A DNA stretch of 64,000 nucleotides. It comes from Flavonifractor sp. An112 (GTDB taxonomy: Bacteria > Bacillota > Clostridia > Oscillospirales > Oscillospiraceae). Positions within the stretch are counted from its first letter, which is position 1. Each line of letters begins with the position of its first letter. A model generated the notes under the pieces. The model was not told the origin of the DNA. It searched no databases and saw only the letters and a list, made by a program, of their open reading frames with translations. This document shows positions 5,024-50,307 of the stretch, piece after piece. The position numbers and the translations under genes are program-made. The stretch covers positions 186,001-250,000 of the forward strand of contig NZ_NFLU01000002.1 of assembly GCF_002161085.1 (NCBI RefSeq), in the 5' to 3' direction.

Positions 5024-5300
5024 TACAACTTGCAGTTCATCCTCTGGGATGGACGCTTCAAATGCGATGACCGGGACAGTACGGGCGGCGCATAAGCGCA
5101 GAGAGGGAGCGGTTGGTGTAAGCTCCCGTGAGGCCGCATCGGAAGGTCACCCGGGAGCGGCTCCGCCGAAGGCAGTAGGCGGGGACGGTTACCCTCCGTT
5201 ACCGGGGCATGAGTGCGCGGGTATGCCCGCGAAGTTAGGTGGTACCACGGAGTGTCATGGCGGCTTCGTCCTATGGGACGAAGCCGCCATGTTATTTTTC
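5024..5300 (+). promoter_or_regulatory. T-box riboswitch upstream of ilvB
   Basis: The leader has the hallmarks of a T-box that senses uncharged tRNA. Stem I has AGTA on the 5' side of the specifier loop, the GAGAGG motif and the GGTTGGTGTAAGC-type distal loop (5101-5122). The conserved T-box sequence AGGTGGTACCACGG is at 5237-5250. A strong intrinsic terminator follows: CATGGCGGCTTCGTCC (5256-5271) pairs with 5276-5291, then a T-rich run. The specifier is probably GTC (Val, 5146-5148), which follows GGAAG and precedes an A; ATC (Ile, 5138-5140) is the less standard alternative. Both suit branched-chain control. Confidence 0.92.
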
Positions 5301-7042: not shown

Positions 7043-7056
7043 GGAGGGTGTGGAAT

Positions 7057-7614
7057 ATGAATGAAATGAATGCCACCCGCCGCACCCTTTCGGTGCTGGT
7101 AGAAAACGCCGCCGGTGTCCTGTCCCAGGTCTCCCGGCTGTTCTCCCGAAAGGGCTATAACATCGAGTCTCTGGCCGTGGGCACCACCGACGATCCCACG
7201 GTGTCCCGTATCACCATTGAGGTGTGGGCCGACGCCCCCATGATCGAGCAGATCATGAACCAGCTTCGCAAGCAGTACCCCGTCTATTCTGTTCAGGAGC
7301 TGAAGCCGGAGCGTTCCATCCGCCGGGAGCTGGTGATGTTCAAGGTGAAGGCGGAGACCCACGACATCCGCAACGAGGTCATCCAGATCGCCAACATTTT
7401 CCGGGCCTCCATCATCGACGTATCTCTGAAATCCCTGACCCTGGCCCTCATCGGCGATGAGACCAAGGCGGAGGCCATGCAGAAGCTGCTGGAGGCCTTC
7501 GGCATCCTGGAGCTGGTCCGCACCGGCATGGTGGCCCTGGAGCGGGGCGCCTATACCATTGAGGACGAGACCAAGGAGCAAACCGAGTTCAACCTGGGCA
7601 AAAACTTCCTTTAA
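7057..7614 (+). CDS. ilvN: Acetolactate synthase, regulatory subunit
   Basis: The small subunit (185 aa) binds branched-chain amino acids and gives feedback control of IlvB. It has an N-terminal ACT domain (about residues 8-82, RTLSVLVENAAGVLSQVSRLF) and the C-terminal ALS_ss domain. The ATG at 7057, 8 nt after AGGAGGG, is preferred to the in-frame GTG inside that ribosome site. Its last 83 coding nucleotides are repeated 290 nt downstream at 7822-7904, beyond a hairpin-rich insert. The gene itself is intact and ends with the first copy. Confidence 0.95.
   Translation: MNEMNATRRTLSVLVENAAGVLSQVSRLFSRKGYNIESLAVGTTDDPTVSRITIEVWADAPMIEQIMNQLRKQYPVYSVQELKPERSIRRELVMFKVKAETHDIRNEVIQIANIFRASIIDVSLKSLTLALIGDETKAEAMQKLLEAFGILELVRTGMVALERGAYTIEDETKEQTEFNLGKNFL
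7532..7614 (+). repeat. Direct repeat copy 1: functional 3' end of ilvN
   Basis: This 83-nt stretch is the working end of ilvN and matches 7822-7904. The first 54 nt (7532-7585) are identical in both copies. After that, eight of the last nine sense codons differ, each by a synonymous third-position change (for example GAG/GAA, TTC/TTT, AAC/AAT, CTG/CTC, GGC/GGG), and both end in TAA. The codons here fit the GC-rich usage of the host better than those in copy 2. Confidence 0.9.
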
Positions 7615-7821
7615 GAAGGGCCACCAGGCCGCTACCGGCGGCCCGCCGCTGTGCGGCGTCCAAGCGTTTTGCGCAGCAAAACCTTGCCGCAGGGGCAATT
7701 CACTGCACAGCCGTTGGCGGCTTTGCCGCCCTACGGATGTGGCGTACCCCTTGCGGGTACTTCCGCCGAGGAGGTTAAATCCGCCCGGAGGGCTCCCAAA
7801 CGTGCCTGCACGTTTGGGAAC
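7615..7821 (+). mobile_element. Gene-end insert E1 (hairpin-rich, non-coding), after ilvN
   Basis: This 207-nt segment lies between the two ilvN tails and shares its core with the inserts after rnc and trmFO, in the same orientation relative to the host gene. It has a chain of hairpins: GGCCGC/GCGGCC, CGCCGC/GCGGCG, CAAGCGTTTTGC/GCAAAACCTTG, GGCGGC/GCCGCC, GTACCC/GGGTAC and, at the 3' end, CCCAAACGTGC/GCACGTTTGGG. No hairpin has a following T-run, so it should not stop transcription inside the ilvBNC operon. No protein-coding frame is supported. I do not recognise the family. Confidence 0.75.
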
Positions 7822-7904
7822 TGGCCCTGGAGCGGGGCGCCTATACCATTGAGGACGAGACCAAGGAGCAAACCGAATTTAATCTCGGGAAGAATTTCCT
7901 GTAA
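7822..7904 (+). pseudogene. Displaced second copy of the ilvN 3' end
   Basis: This is a duplicate of the last 27 codons plus stop of ilvN, lying downstream of insert E1 without a start codon or ribosome site. It still encodes the same residues as the functional tail, with eight of its last nine codons synonymously different. Because ilvC follows it, it probably marks the original ilvN end; that is an inference. Its last codons are richer in A/T than is usual for this genome. Confidence 0.85.
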
Positions 7905-25313: not shown

Positions 25314-25490
25314 AGGAAGTCCACAGGAAAAAGCCGACGGCTTGCCGAAGGAGCAAAACTCTCAGGCGTTTCCCCCGGGAAATGAGGACTGTGGATGGAT
25401 GTGGCTCTGGAGAAGTCCCCCCAGCGGGGATGCCGAAGGTGCAACGCGCCCCCATGGGGCACGAATCTCTCAGGCAAAAGGACAGAGTGA
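25314..25490 (+). promoter_or_regulatory. Tandem glycine riboswitch (gcvT type)
   Basis: Two consecutive aptamers are visible. Aptamer 1 has the core from GCCGAAGGAGCAA (from 25344) to CTCTCAGGC (ending 25367), closed by AGTCC (25319 region) pairing with GGACT. Aptamer 2 has GCCGAAGGTGCAA (from 25432) to TCTCTCAGGCAAAAGGACAG (ending ~25486), closed by CTCTG/CAGAG. This is the cooperative tandem form. It precedes an amino acid symporter gene rather than gcv genes, consistent with control of glycine transport. Confidence 0.93.
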
Positions 25491-46402: not shown

Positions 46403-46419
46403 CTTTCCAGTTGATGCCC

Positions 46420-46468
46420 TCAGCCCTTCAGCTTCTCAATGGCAGCTTTGGCGGTATTCTGCTCCGCC
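46420..46468 (-). pseudogene. Displaced second copy of the rnc 3' end
   Basis: These 49 nt repeat the last 49 nt of rnc (46628-46676), 208 nt away, including a TGA stop. Six positions differ: five are synonymous (AAG/AAA, GCC/GCT, ATC/ATT, AAA/AAG, GGT/GGC) and one changes Ala to Thr. There is no start codon. The old terminator follows directly, so this is probably the ancestral rnc end. Confidence 0.82.
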
Positions 46469-46627
46469 CCCAAACCGCACGGCGGTTTGGGAACCCCATT
46501 TCATTCTATCTGTCCGGGTGAAGTGAATTCACCCGGCATCAAGGTTTTGCCTCCGGCAAAACGCTTGGCGCCGCAGAGCGGCGGCTCGCTTACGCTCGCA
46601 AAAGAGGCGGAGCACTCTGGCAATCAC
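46469..46627 (-). mobile_element. Gene-end insert E2 (hairpin-rich, non-coding), after rnc
   Basis: This 159-nt segment lies between the functional and displaced rnc tails. In the sense of rnc it reads as GCGAGC/GCTCGC-type, CGCCG..CGGCG, CAAGCGTTTTGC/GCAAAACCTTG, CCGGGTGAA/TTCACCCGG and a final CCCAAACCGCC..GCGGTTTGGG hairpin that directly abuts the displaced tail. The core aligns with E1 and E3. It carries no T-run terminator and no coding frame. Confidence 0.78.
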
Positions 46628-46676
46628 TCAACCCTTCAGTTTCTCGATGGCGGCCTTGGCGGCATTCTGCTCCGCC
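46628..46676 (-). repeat. Direct repeat copy 1: functional 3' end of rnc
   Basis: The working end of rnc, matching 46420-46468 at 43 of 49 positions. The differences are confined almost entirely to third codon positions. Confidence 0.82.
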
Positions 46677-47299
46677 TCTTTTTTGCTGCGGCCCTTGCCC
46701 TGTCCGATGGGGGTGCCGTTCAGGTCCACCTCCACCGAGAAGATCTTGGCGTGGTCGGGGCCCTCGGCGCCGATGAGCTGATAGCCCAGCACCTGGCCGC
46801 TCTCCCGCTGGACCAGTTCCTGCAGGGCGGTCTTGTAGTCCCGGCTGGCGCTCTTCTCCTCTTCCCGGTCCAGGATAAACTTCTGGATGATCTTGCGGGC
46901 GGAGCCGATGCCGCCGTCCAGGTAGACAGCGGCGATCACCGCCTCCACCGCATCAGCCACGATGGAGGGCCGCTCCCGGCCGCCGCCGGCGTCCTCACCC
47001 TTGCCCAGTTTCAGGTAGGCTCCCAGGTTCAGCTGCTGGGCCACCTCCACCAGGCTGCCCTCGCACACCAGGGCCGCCCGGGTGCGGGTCAGATCCCCCT
47101 CGGGCAGATCGGGATGGGTGCGGAACAGGTAGTCCGCCGTCACCATACCCAGCACGGAGTCTCCCAGAAACTCCAGCCGCTCATTGCTCTGGCACCCTCT
47201 CGCCTTGTTCTCGTTGGCGTAGGAGCTGTGGGTCAGAGCATTTTCCAACAGGGCCCGCTGGTTGAAGCGGTAACCCAGCTTTTCTTCCAAGGCTTCCAT
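46628..47299 (-). CDS. rnc: Ribonuclease III
   Basis: RNase III cuts double-stranded RNA in rRNA processing and decay. The 223-aa protein has the signature NERLEFLGDSVLG (about residues 39-51), the second metal-site segment VADAVEAVIAAVYLDGG, and a C-terminal dsRNA-binding domain (about residues 155-222) ending KKEAEQNAAKAAIEKLKG. GGGAGGG precedes the ATG. It lies between acpP and smc, the normal order, but its last 49 nt are duplicated downstream by insert E2. Confidence 0.96.
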   Translation of the reverse strand: MEALEEKLGYRFNQRALLENALTHSSYANENKARGCQSNERLEFLGDSVLGMVTADYLFRTHPDLPEGDLTRTRAALVCEGSLVEVAQQLNLGAYLKLGKGEDAGGGRERPSIVADAVEAVIAAVYLDGGIGSARKIIQKFILDREEEKSASRDYKTALQELVQRESGQVLGYQLIGAEGPDHAKIFSVEVDLNGTPIGQGKGRSKKEAEQNAAKAAIEKLKG

Positions 47300-47322
47300 G
47301 GCCGTCCCTCCCTTTCATGACA

Positions 47323-47347
47323 GGAGCCCCGCCGACGGCGGGGCTCC
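47323..47347. other. GC-rich hairpin between acpP and rnc
   Basis: GGAGCCCCGCC pairs with GGCGGGGCTCC around GAC. It lacks a T-run, so it may act as an RNA-stability or processing element rather than as a terminator. Confidence 0.5.
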
Positions 47348-47363
47348 CCAGTCTGATTCTGTG

Positions 47364-47597
47364 TCAGTCTTCCAGTTTGGACTTCAGATAGCGGACCAGG
47401 TCGGCCACAGTGGCAACGCCGGACAGGTCGTCCTCGTCCATATTCTCCAGGCCGAACTCCTCTTCCACCGCCATGGTCAGTTCCACGATGTCCAGAGAGT
47501 CGGCACCCAGGTCCTCGAAGGAGGTGTCCATGGTGATGCTGTCAGCTTCCACACCAAACTGCTCGGACAGCAGACCGGCAATCTTCTCAAAAATCAT
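47364..47597 (-). CDS. acpP: Acyl carrier protein
   Basis: ACP carries growing fatty acyl chains on phosphopantetheine. The 77-aa protein has the attachment motif LGADSLDIVELTM with Ser at about residue 34. The ATG at 47597 (MIFEKIAGLL) is 9 nt after AGGAG and matches the normal start; the ATG two codons earlier is too close to the ribosome site. It follows plsX by about 95 nt and has its own promoter with a palindrome. Confidence 0.96.
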   Translation of the reverse strand: MIFEKIAGLLSEQFGVEADSITMDTSFEDLGADSLDIVELTMAVEEEFGLENMDEDDLSGVATVADLVRYLKSKLED

Positions 47598-47643
47598 GTT
47601 CATCTACTCCTGTCGCATCCGTCGTCCGACGGCGTCTTTGCTT

Positions 47644-47683
47644 TTGCACTATGATAATAGTGCAAGTTTCAATGACCTGTCAA
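47644..47683 (-). promoter_or_regulatory. acpP promoter with overlapping palindromic operator
   Basis: On the minus strand TTGACA (47678-47683) is followed 18 nt later by TATTAT. The -10 lies inside a perfect inverted repeat, TTGCACTAT-GATA-ATAGTGCAA (47644-47665). A repressor bound there would block the promoter. In Bacillota fatty-acid genes are often controlled by FapR or FabT; this palindrome is not a clear match to either site as I know them. Confidence 0.65.
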
Positions 47684-47691
47684 TAGGTAAG

Positions 47692-48729
47692 TCAAATTTT
47701 TTCCTCGCCACCGGGGGTCAGGCGCATATATTCGATGTTATCCACCAAATCGTCGATCATGCCGGAGGCGGCAAAATCCCGAGCCTGACGGATGGCGTTT
47801 TTGATGGCGTAGTCGTTAGAGGAGCCATGGGCCTTGATCACCGGCTTGGAAATACCGATAAGAGCGGTACCGCCCACCTCGCTGGAGTCCATCTTCTTTT
47901 TGAACTGCTTGAGCCCGCCGGACACCAGCACCGCAGCCAGTTTGGTGAGGAAGCTCTTCTTGAACATGGCCTTCAGCTCCTTGGCCATATACCCGGCGGT
48001 ACCCTCCATGGTCTTGAGGAAGATGTTGCCCGAGTAGCCGTCGGACACGATGACGTCCACCTGGCCGAACACCGCCTCACGGGCCTCCACGTTGCCCACG
48101 AAGTGGATGCGTCCGGCCTTGTCTGCCTCGGTGAGCAGGGCGTGGGCTTCCCGCTGCAGATCGGTGCCCTTGGAGGGCTCGGCGCCGATGTTCAGCAGGC
48201 CCACCTTGGGCTCAGGCCGCTTAAGTACCCGTTCGGCATAGTAGGAACCCATGAAGGCAAACTGGAGCAGGTACTCCGGGGTACCCTCGGCAGTGGCGCC
48301 GCAGTCGATGAGCACCGCCCCGCCGGCGCCAGTGGGCACCACAGGGGCCAGGGCGGCCCGGCGAATACCGCGCACCCGCTTGATCATCAGGGTGGCGGCG
48401 GAGAGCAGGGCGCCGGTGCTGCCGGCGGACACAAAGGCATCGCCGTCCCCGTTTTTCAACAGATTGAGGCCCACAGTGAGGGAGGAGTCCTTCTTCTCCC
48501 GGAAGGCGGTGGCGGGGTTGTCGCACATCTCCACCACCTGGCTGGCGTGGGCGATCTCCAGGCCGGGAGGCAGCTGATCGATACCGTCGTCCTTCAGGAC
48601 CTTGAGGATATCCTCTCCCCGGCCCACCAGGATGACCTCCACCCCCAGCTCACGGACCGCAGCCAGTGCGCCCCGCACATTGGAAGCAGGCGCGTTGTCG
48701 CCCCCCATGGCGTCTACGATGATCTTCAT
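47692..48729 (-). CDS. plsX: Phosphate acyltransferase PlsX
   Basis: PlsX converts acyl-ACP to acyl phosphate for phospholipid synthesis at the membrane. The 345-aa protein starts MKIIVDAMGGDNAP and has VSAGSTGALL (about residue 98), IDCGAT and VSDGYSGNIFLKTMEG. AGAGGAGAACC precedes the ATG. It is followed by acpP as in most Bacillota. The displaced trmFO tail ends about 52 nt upstream of its start. Confidence 0.96.
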   Translation of the reverse strand: MKIIVDAMGGDNAPASNVRGALAAVRELGVEVILVGRGEDILKVLKDDGIDQLPPGLEIAHASQVVEMCDNPATAFREKKDSSLTVGLNLLKNGDGDAFVSAGSTGALLSAATLMIKRVRGIRRAALAPVVPTGAGGAVLIDCGATAEGTPEYLLQFAFMGSYYAERVLKRPEPKVGLLNIGAEPSKGTDLQREAHALLTEADKAGRIHFVGNVEAREAVFGQVDVIVSDGYSGNIFLKTMEGTAGYMAKELKAMFKKSFLTKLAAVLVSGGLKQFKKKMDSSEVGGTALIGISKPVIKAHGSSNDYAIKNAIRQARDFAASGMIDDLVDNIEYMRLTPGGEEKI

Positions 48730-48780
48730 ATGGTTCTCCTCTTCTTTCTATGTTCTTCCGTTTTCAGACGGGTGGGGTCT

Positions 48781-48852
48781 CAGCCCTCTACATCCAGTCC
48801 CGCCAGCATTTCCAGAGCCCGCTTGGAGAGTTCGGCATTCTTGTTCCGCTTG
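48781..48852 (-). pseudogene. Displaced second copy of the trmFO 3' end
   Basis: Sixty-four nt (48789-48852) are identical to the last part of trmFO (49009-49072), 220 nt away. The end differs: this copy would finish ...LDVEG-stop (TGA), while the functional gene finishes ...LDVK-stop (TAA). It has no start codon and is followed by plsX, so it probably marks the original trmFO end. Confidence 0.88.
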
Positions 48853-49002
48853 TTCCCCACGGAAATCATATTTCCGTGGGGGCCCCGATCCTTAAATCTG
48901 CTCGGGCGAAGTGAATTCGCCCGGCATCAAGATTTTGCTTCGCAAAATACTTGGCGCCGCACGGCGGCGGGTCGCTTTCGCTCCCGGGTAAGCGGACGCG
49001 CC
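48853..49002 (-). mobile_element. Gene-end insert E3 (hairpin-rich, non-coding), after trmFO
   Basis: This 150-nt segment sits between the two trmFO tails. In the sense of trmFO it has CCGCCG..CGGCG, CAAGTATTTTGC/GCAAAATCTTG, CGGGCGAA/TTCGCCCG and a terminal CCCCACGGAAAT/ATTTCCGTGGGG hairpin abutting the displaced tail. Compared with E2 several stem pairs differ on both sides so that pairing is kept. No coding frame, no T-run terminator. Confidence 0.78.
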
Positions 49003-49072
49003 TTATTTTACATCCAGTCCCGCCAGCATTTCCAGAGCCCGCTTGGAGAGTTCGGCATTCTTGTTCCGCTTG
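49003..49072 (-). repeat. Direct repeat copy 1: functional 3' end of trmFO
   Basis: 49009-49072 is identical over 64 nt to 48789-48852. Only the last three codons (GTA AAA TAA here) diverge from the downstream copy (GTA GAG GGC TGA). Confidence 0.9.
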
Positions 49073-50307
49073 CCCTTGACCTTATAGCCCAGGGGTGGGA
49101 TGATGCCGAAATTCACGTTCATGGGTTGGAAATCGGTAACGCTCTCATTGCTGATATACAGGGCCAGGGCACCGGTAGCGGTCTCCTGAGGGAAATCCAC
49201 CGGCGGCTTGCCGGTGAGCCGCCGGGCCAGCTCCACCGCCGCCAGGAAACCGGAAGCGGTGGACTCCACATAGCCCTCCACGCCGGTGATCTGGCCAGCA
49301 AAACAGATCCGGGGGTCCTTCTTCACCCGGTAGTACCGGTCCAGCAGCCGGGGAGAGTCCAGATAGGTATTGCGGTGCATGACGCCGTAGCGGACGAATT
49401 CCGCGTTTTTCAAAGCAGGGATCATGGAGAATACCCGCTTCTGCTCCGGCCACTTCAGATGGGTCTGGAAGCCCACCAGATTGTAGATGGTGCCGCCGGC
49501 GTTGTCCCGCCGCAGCTGCACCACGGCGAAGGGCTCCTTGCCGGTCTTGGGGTCCCGCAGGCCCCGGGGCTTCAGGGGCCCGTAGCACAGGGTCTGCTTC
49601 CCCCGGCGGGCCATGACCTCCACCGGCATACAGCCCTCAAACACGTTCTTGTCCTCAAAGCCGTGGACCTCCGCCTCCTGGGCGGCACACAGCTCAGTCC
49701 AGAATGCGTCGTACTCTTCCTCGGTCATGGGGCAGTTGATGTAGTCCGGGGTACCCTTGTCATAGCGGGAGGCAAAGAAGGCGCTGTCCATGTCTACGCT
49801 TTCAAAGGTGACCAGCGGGGCGGCGGCATCAAAGAAGTTGAGGTAGTGGCTCTCCGGGAAAAAATCCTTGATGGCATCTGCCAGCACGTCGGAGGTCAGG
49901 GGCCCGGAGGCCACAATCACGTTGCCCTCGGAGGGGATGGCAGTAACTTCCTCCTCCACCACAGTAATGAGAGGATGATTCCGGATCTTTTCGGTGATGG
50001 CCTGAGCAAAGCCGTGGCGGTCTACCGCCAGGGCGCCGCCGGCCTCCACCCGGTGCTCGTCGGCGCAGGAGAGGATGAGGGAGCCCATCCGCCGCAACTC
50101 CTCCTTCAGCAGGCCCACCGCGTTCTCCAGCTGGTCGGAGCGCAGGGAGTTGGAGCACACCAGCTCACCGAACCACTGGGTATGGTGGGCGGGGGTCATC
50201 TTGTGGGGCTTCATTTCCTTCAGGGTCACGGGGATGCCACGACGGGCCAGCTGCCACGCAGCCTCACACCCGGCCAGACCCGCGCCGATCACGAGTACAG
50301 GTTCCAT
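49003..50307 (-). CDS. trmFO: Methylenetetrahydrofolate-tRNA-(uracil-5-)-methyltransferase TrmFO
   Basis: TrmFO makes 5-methyluridine-54 in tRNA using methylene-THF and FAD. The 434-aa protein has the FAD-binding start VIGAGLAGCEAAWQLARRG (about residues 5-23), CSNSLRSDQLENAVGLLKEE with the catalytic Cys region, and ITGVEGYVESTASG near the C-terminal FAD site. AAGGAGGAACC precedes the ATG. Its last 64 nt before the final codons are duplicated beyond insert E3, so its present C-terminus (LDVK) is probably not the ancestral one (LDVEG). Confidence 0.95.
   Translation of the reverse strand: MEPVLVIGAGLAGCEAAWQLARRGIPVTLKEMKPHKMTPAHHTQWFGELVCSNSLRSDQLENAVGLLKEELRRMGSLILSCADEHRVEAGGALAVDRHGFAQAITEKIRNHPLITVVEEEVTAIPSEGNVIVASGPLTSDVLADAIKDFFPESHYLNFFDAAAPLVTFESVDMDSAFFASRYDKGTPDYINCPMTEEEYDAFWTELCAAQEAEVHGFEDKNVFEGCMPVEVMARRGKQTLCYGPLKPRGLRDPKTGKEPFAVVQLRRDNAGGTIYNLVGFQTHLKWPEQKRVFSMIPALKNAEFVRYGVMHRNTYLDSPRLLDRYYRVKKDPRICFAGQITGVEGYVESTASGFLAAVELARRLTGKPPVDFPQETATGALALYISNESVTDFQPMNVNFGIIPPLGYKVKGKRNKNAELSKRALEMLAGLDVK

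Follow-up and report, generated by a model that had tools for sequence, protein, structure and literature searches.

A structured, guide-bearing element behind duplicated gene ends in Flavonifractor and related gut bacteria: a candidate for intron-like splicing

Introduction

Bacteria are thought to splice their ordinary protein-coding genes only rarely, and then by means of group I or group II ribozymes. Here we analyze a 64,000-nt stretch of the genome of Flavonifractor sp. An112 (contig NZ_NFLU01000002.1, positions 186,001-250,000; hereinafter the window), in which three copies (E1, E2 and E3) of a small hairpin-rich element stand behind genes that we take to be ilvN (E1, plus strand), rnc (E2) and a trmFO-like gene (E3, like E2 on the minus strand), the name rnc resting on the encoded protein and on the neighbors smc, acpP and plsX. 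Each copy is preceded by the complete gene end, including the stop codon (tail 1), and followed by a second copy of that end (tail 2), and we denote as J the point in the gene at which the duplicated sequence starts. Intron-like splicing of a hitherto undescribed kind, acting on ordinary genes of bacteria, would best account for this arrangement.

In group I introns, guide-type parts are played by the P1 and P10 helices (PMC6155759). The element resembles these introns in that the 5' exon end pairs with a single guide, which is also able to pair with the beginning of the 3' exon, pairing being observed from about -5 to +8 around J; furthermore, as in group I trans-splicing ribozymes that carry a 3' exon, a replacement gene end is attached downstream. 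In contrast to group I introns, the element is small (about 100-160 nt from the guide to the 3' boundary), lacks an Rfam match, and contains a coding tail duplicate with its stop codon inside the presumed intron. The group I splice-site rule (U at exon position -1 and a terminal intron G) does not hold across 91 junctions, where exon position -1 is A in 42%, G in 40% and T in 14%, and the presumed intron ends in C in 43%, T in 26%, A in 18% and G in 13%, with the proviso that chance matches may shift the exact junction.

Group II introns, including the alternatively spliced bacterial ones, are likewise RNA insertions in bacterial genes that pair with exons through intron sequence; however, the element has no domain V match in Rfam, is far smaller, encloses no maturase and has a guide that spans both exons contiguously, and in place of the 5' GUGYG motif its presumed intron starts with the coding tail, without any fixed motif. 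IStrons and the IS200/IS605 elements share with it the nature of mobile or repeated hairpin-bearing elements that can stay harmless to the host gene, but the element contains no transposase (no search aimed at transposases was made), the repeat flanking it consists of the end of the host gene itself, and the guide, typically of 8-20 nt, is gene-specific. Diversity-generating retroelements, like the present element, have a hairpin at the gene end that lies between near-copies of the gene's 3' terminus; the spectrum of tail differences in the present case (CT 229, AG 158, CG 85, AC 52, GT 41, AT 19), however, is not adenine-specific, a reverse transcriptase is not consistently present, and the host genes are housekeeping genes. 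REP/REPIN and other miniature repeats also come in dozens of short palindromic copies per genome, whereas this element is mostly sense-oriented at gene ends and is accompanied by a gene-tail copy of tens of bases with a matching guide; terminal inverted repeats of the type found in miniature inverted-repeat transposable elements were not seen by eye, and in place of a short target duplication the flanking repeat is the gene's own end, mostly 30-110 nt long. A group II intron, a diversity-generating retroelement and a miniature transposon each fail on the features tested. We found no description of the element in the open-access literature, nor of matching introns, structured RNAs, duplicated gene ends or new self-splicing classes.

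Results

The hairpins of E1, E2 and E3 belong to one structured element. Fourteen copies from the same genome were aligned, a consensus fold was derived, the first fold being predicted from the unconstrained alignment, and a covariance model (R1) was built, which yielded 30 matches in the window genome (the last one weak) and between 9 and 59 matches in each of 20 genomes of the genus. Rfam, searched both at the gathering threshold and permissively (E up to 10 for the region), gave no relevant match to the element. In the sense of the gene, the order of parts is the gene with its stop codon (tail 1), some nucleotides, the guide, zero to two accessory hairpins, the core and tail 2. The core comprises CAAG-C-GTTTTGCC/GGCAAAACCTTG (stem 1), TGCCGGGCG/CGCCCGAGCA with an ATTCA(C/T) loop (stem 2), GATNAAA, a segment of the GGGGTCCCC type and the terminal hairpin, after which tail 2 follows directly; an A-rich linker connects stem 2 with the terminal hairpin. 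The distances from guide to core cluster at 1-2, 19-21 and 31-40 nt, which fits zero, one or two accessory hairpins.

A preliminary description of the window had pointed to stems whose pairs change on both sides between copies, and the sequence bears this out: GTTTTGC/GCAAAAC in E1 and E2 is replaced by ATTTTGC/GCAAAAT in E3, the second stem CCGGGTGAA/TTCACCCGG of E2 is CGGGCGAA/TTCGCCCG in E3, and the terminal hairpins differ in sequence while each is nearly perfect and abuts the displaced tail, with an ATTCAC loop common to all three copies. The span to which these changes had been assigned, 46469-49002, contains E2 and E3, with rnc, acpP and plsX between them, but not E1, whose stem 2 is broken by an insert.

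Covariation across many copies, a check suggested in that description, is upheld by pair counts and shuffles on 107 aligned copies, the values below referring to 103 distinct ones. Standard pairs fill 98.4% of the pair cells, compared with 81.8 +/- 0.4% in shuffled alignments and 53-54% when partners are slid by one column, and both sides have changed in 27 of the 29 pairs. The covariation score is 0.410 versus 0.115 +/- 0.005 in shuffles, none of 500 being as high, and at most 0.077 with slid partners, and the top mutual-information values after average product correction (APC) fall nearly all on predicted pairs. The alignment was fitted to the model, which favors structure, and related copies are counted repeatedly, but the gap between the scores was judged too large for these effects. 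A chance origin of the hairpin pairing is excluded, and selection on the fold, not on primary sequence alone, is strongly supported by the consensus fold, the covariation and the mutual information. Outside the stems, mutual information is mostly subfamily signal. A GGGG segment before the terminal hairpin covaries weakly with the CCCC/GGGG strands of that hairpin (columns 172-175, 177-180 and 225-228 of alignment A2), which may represent an alternative pairing.

With respect to the folded molecule, RNA is favored over single-stranded DNA on three grounds, namely the sense orientation of the elements behind genes, the pairing of the guide with the sense strand and the persistence of protein-coding sequence in the downstream tail. 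Cells with G-U outnumber those with A-C by 78 to 26, but the ratio becomes 26 to 26 once a single column is dropped; given that nearly all of the excess comes from this column, it does not by itself separate RNA from DNA.

Nearly every copy is sense-oriented just behind a gene, and in 160 of 178 distinct copies the terminal hairpin adjoins tail 2, which repeats the final stretch of the gene from J onward, some 20-130 nt. Wherever a tail copy follows (160 copies), the terminal hairpin is the 3' boundary, as had been anticipated, with tail 2 starting 0-2 nt past the model end in 120 of them and at -4 to +6 in the remainder. The main features beyond the hairpins had escaped the preliminary description, namely a guide, a junction and a displaced tail that is constrained as coding sequence. 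The guide, typically 8-20 nt long, complements gene sequence on both sides of J, at positions of about -5 to +8. It matches its own junction over at least 10 nt in 72% of the copies, compared with 1.6% when junctions are swapped and none of 158 upstream control windows, the mean match scores being 11.2, 5.6 and 5.3 nt, respectively. Among 159 registered helices, Watson-Crick pairing amounts to 82-94% from -3 to +6, with the peak across J, and when E1, E2 and E3 are each folded together with the gene end, the minimum-energy structure contains the helix between guide and gene. G occupies exon position -2 in 81% of the junctions, and the terminal hairpin almost invariably ends in GG. A preference of the guide for tail 1 over tail 2 was expected, and none was found (13 to 11 at the sites where the tails differ).

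Both tails stay coding. In all statistics given here, identical rows were removed and the copies were then taken as independent, common ancestry inflating the values but not changing the direction of the result. The two tails show an identity of 0.84-0.96 before the stop codon, which drops to 0.40-0.47 past it; were tail 2 mere debris, it would be expected to decay like the downstream sequence. Single-base codon differences between the tails comprise 306 synonymous and 30 nonsynonymous ones (dN/dS-like ratio 0.034), whereas 41% synonymous would be expected under a model in which only tail 1 is constrained and tail 2 evolves neutrally (P about 5e-83 against this model). Changes private to one tail are of the same character in both, with synonymous to nonsynonymous ratios of 59:22 in tail 2 and 36:11 in tail 1, and tail 2 shares the position of its stop codon with tail 1 in 126 of 158 loci. 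In the window, all 8 of 8 codon differences at E1 (locus L046) are synonymous, and those at E2 (L021) are 5 synonymous and 1 nonsynonymous. Some loci have tails that encode different C-termini, one of them with DTDQM in tail 1 and DTDTM in tail 2. Plain RecA exchange between the tails was rejected as the cause of the synonymous pattern because a neutral tail 2 would, after the latest exchange, have gathered differences of which about 74% are nonsynonymous. Other genera (genomes G109, G105, G119, G173, G224 and G226) repeat the pattern, some copies there having no tail copy or an uncertain frame.

A different insert of ~120 nt was noticed within tail 2 of fusA-like and pgi-like copies (L020, L123 and L029); these inserts share a TGGGA..AGGAG..CA.GGAA-like stretch, and coding resumes after them with few or silent changes. 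They possibly represent a second intron-like family, of whose pattern a scan of the window found no match.

Empty sites reveal which tail is the native one. The element is absent from rnc in genomes G006, G011, G012, G014, G015 and G018, and the empty site of G015 runs into the 3' sequence that is found past tail 2 in the window (GGGCATCAACTGGAAAGAAACAGGACTGCGG). The empty ilvN site in G006 likewise continues as tail 2 and its 3' sequence, with a few changes. Removal of the insert thus restores an uninterrupted native gene at both sites, so that tail 1, the spare ending, and the element were added, whereas tail 2 is the native end. One rnc insertion is common to several species, with the guide changing along with the target: target and guide are GGCGGAG/CTCCGCC in most, GGCCGAG/CTCGGCC in G007 and GGCGGAA/TTCCGCC in G009. 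Further orthologous insertions likewise show guides that track target changes, and this compensation in place argues that the pairing is still in use rather than being a relic of insertion. Tandem arrays of two or three tail-plus-element units occur at L103, L104, L274 and L280, as expected from unequal recombination between tails; at L103, a later tail in the array has gained a stop codon.

Strong matches were found in 55 of 200 genomes and in 32 of 92 sampled genera of family f1, which, judging from organism names, would be the Oscillospiraceae; guides and tails in distant matches were checked for 51 copies. The records bearing the element include Flavonifractor plautii, Flavonifractor sp. 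An10, An82 and An306, Pseudoflavonifractor phocaeensis, Intestinimonas and others. Among the host genes, groEL, fusA, aspS and sepF are presumptive names given by reading the encoded ends and not from database matches. A 1.9 Mb genome from another family of the order (G042; L068, L077-L102) has 89 core-model matches, some in tandem with a spacing of about 118 nt, and the eight copies that were read show no gene-tail duplication, so that related cores exist outside the guide-tail arrangement. Two diverged copies without a tail copy (L040 and L042) lie beside tRNA-like sequences and run into terminator-like hairpins. A reverse transcriptase (RVT_1) is not a consistent partner, several many-copy genomes having no match and others one; genome G005, 99% complete and with 24 copies, has none. 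Viral contigs scanned for the exact pattern gave no match that would indicate carriage by phages.

Table 1. Positions, in the window, of the three copies, their host genes and tails, and two other structured RNAs
Feature	Position	Strand	Basis or remark
E1 element	7615-7821	+	behind ilvN
ilvN (acetolactate synthase small subunit) reading frame, E1 host gene	7048-7614	+	open reading frame
E1 tail 1, J at 7531/7532	7532-7614	+	83-nt repeat with 7822-7904
E1 guide, complement of ilvN across J (AGGGCCACC plus partial extension)	7617-7631	+	sequence; fold
E1 structured core, stem 2 broken by insert, terminal hairpin 7795-7818	7661-7819	+	R1, 37.2 bits
E1 tail 2, native ilvN end	7822-7904	+	repeat; empty site in G006 with matching 3' sequence
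E2 element	46469-46627	-	behind rnc
rnc (ribonuclease III) reading frame, E2 host gene, its end being tail 1	46628-47299	-	open reading frame
E2 tail 1, last rnc codons, J at 46676/46677	46627-46676	-	50-nt repeat, 88% identical to 46419-46468
E2 guide, 15 nt, perfect complement of rnc 46668-46682 across J	46600-46614	-	inverted repeat I17
E2 structured core: stem 1, stem 2 with ATTCAC loop, terminal hairpin 46469-46491	46467-46567	-	R1, 103.9 bits; fold
E2 tail 2, native rnc end, immediately past the terminal hairpin	46419-46468	-	repeat; empty site in G015 with the same 3' sequence
E3 element	48853-49002	-	behind trmFO-like gene
trmFO-like reading frame, E3 host gene	49003-50307	-	open reading frame
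E3 tail 1, J at 49072/49073	49009-49072	-	64-nt repeat, 100% identical to 48789-48852
E3 guide, 10 of 11 nt complementary to 49065-49075 across J	48986-48996	-	sequence; fold pairs guide with gene
E3 structured core including terminal hairpin	48854-48953	-	R1, 97.8 bits
E3 tail 2	48789-48852	-	repeat of tail 1
T-box leader upstream of acetolactate synthase genes	5058-5276		Rfam
Tandem glycine riboswitch	25314-25487		Rfam

Discussion

The guide marks J, and tail 2 is under selection at the protein level despite the stop codon that precedes it; the simplest process that would account for both is splicing from J to the base past the terminal hairpin. Thus, the best explanation, and in our view a probable one, is intron-like splicing that removes the RNA between the junctions, that is, tail 1 together with the element. 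On this view, the element would form the 3' portion of a small intron-like RNA equipped with a spare ending for the gene. The transcript would run from the gene to J, through tail 1 with its stop codon, the guide, the accessory hairpins and the core, into tail 2 with its stop codon and the native 3' sequence. Pairing across J, the guide would keep the upstream exon end in place and, since tail 2 opens with the same letters, could also hold the start of tail 2 as a splint. Cuts at J and just past the terminal hairpin, followed by joining, would remove tail 1 and the element and restore the native mRNA. The structure, the guide, the junction, the empty sites and the protein-level constraint on both tails are observed; the cutting and joining, which may be self-catalyzed or protein-assisted, are inferred, as is any route by which new copies would acquire new guides. 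Unspliced RNA would be translated into tail 1 and give nearly the same protein, so that the insertion would be harmless either way. Moreover, tail 1 would stop ribosomes ahead of the folded core, a role that may explain why the tail-bearing copies are found at gene ends.

Several observations weigh against splicing. Tail 2 is broken or lost in some cases (10 of 125 distinct pairs; loci L025, L031, L130 and L147) and is therefore dispensable at some loci. Terminator-like sites between tail 1 and the core are present at only 20 of 158 loci, so that transcription can generally reach tail 2, but those 20 loci themselves count on the opposite side; broken tails 2 were expected to be commoner behind such a terminator, and the difference is not significant (3 of 20 versus 12 of 138, P = 0.41). 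Tail-bearing copies sit at gene ends with a working tail 1, although efficient splicing alone would also permit insertions in the middle of genes, and no known catalytic core is recognizable in the element. Finally, in 14 of 53 divergent loci the differences between the tails are clustered, a sign of gene conversion or transfer.

The last of these observations would also be accommodated by a mobile DNA element that inserts near gene ends as directed by its guide and duplicates the gene tail, with tail 1 keeping the gene working and tail 2 being a by-product that owes its coding appearance to recombination with element-free alleles of other strains or to repeated homing. The guide indeed spans a contiguous target, the very long guides (19-20 nt) look copied from it, presence differs among species of one genus, and tandem arrays exist (L103-L110). 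Recombination with foreign alleles could mimic the silent pattern where differences form blocks; scattered differences outside blocks, however, are equally silent (159 synonymous, 16 nonsynonymous), the private changes of tail 2 are far from the nonsynonymous majority expected of neutral sequence, and the guide follows later changes of the target. Together with the lack of a consistently present reverse transcriptase (transposases were not the aim of any search), these findings lead us to consider such an element unlikely. A regulatory or 3'-end RNA element, in which guide pairing and hairpins control the stability or termination of the host mRNA without ligation, appears highly unlikely: the sense-oriented position past the stop codon, the strong hairpins and the conserved core would suit it, but it offers no reason why the guide should center exactly where tail 2 begins or why tail 2 should keep its reading frame and stop codon, and the terminal hairpin lacks a U tract. 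Trans-splicing, in which a separately made RNA carrying the element and tail 2 would exchange the tails of mRNAs as designed trans-splicing ribozymes do, is hardly credible given that the cis arrangement makes a separate RNA needless, even though guide, core and 3' exon follow in the same order as in group I constructs that replace 3' ends (PMC6155759).

Returning to intron-like splicing, the chances appear about even that these copies constitute a new class of bacterial introns, defined by a core of ~100 nt, a gene-specific guide of typically 8-20 nt that splints both splice sites and a duplicate coding gene end within the intron, and residing in housekeeping genes of many gut bacteria of the Oscillospiraceae type. 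Should the element act on DNA instead, it would be an inserter that bears a guide and leaves its target genes working, and this too is undescribed in the open-access literature searched. Flavonifractor plautii, one of the bearers, is culturable. If intron-like splicing is indeed at work, it would be a third kind of splicing in bacteria, present dozens of times per genome in core genes, among them rnc and the presumptive groEL, fusA and aspS; gene annotation would change, and a compact guide-directed RNA system would be gained.
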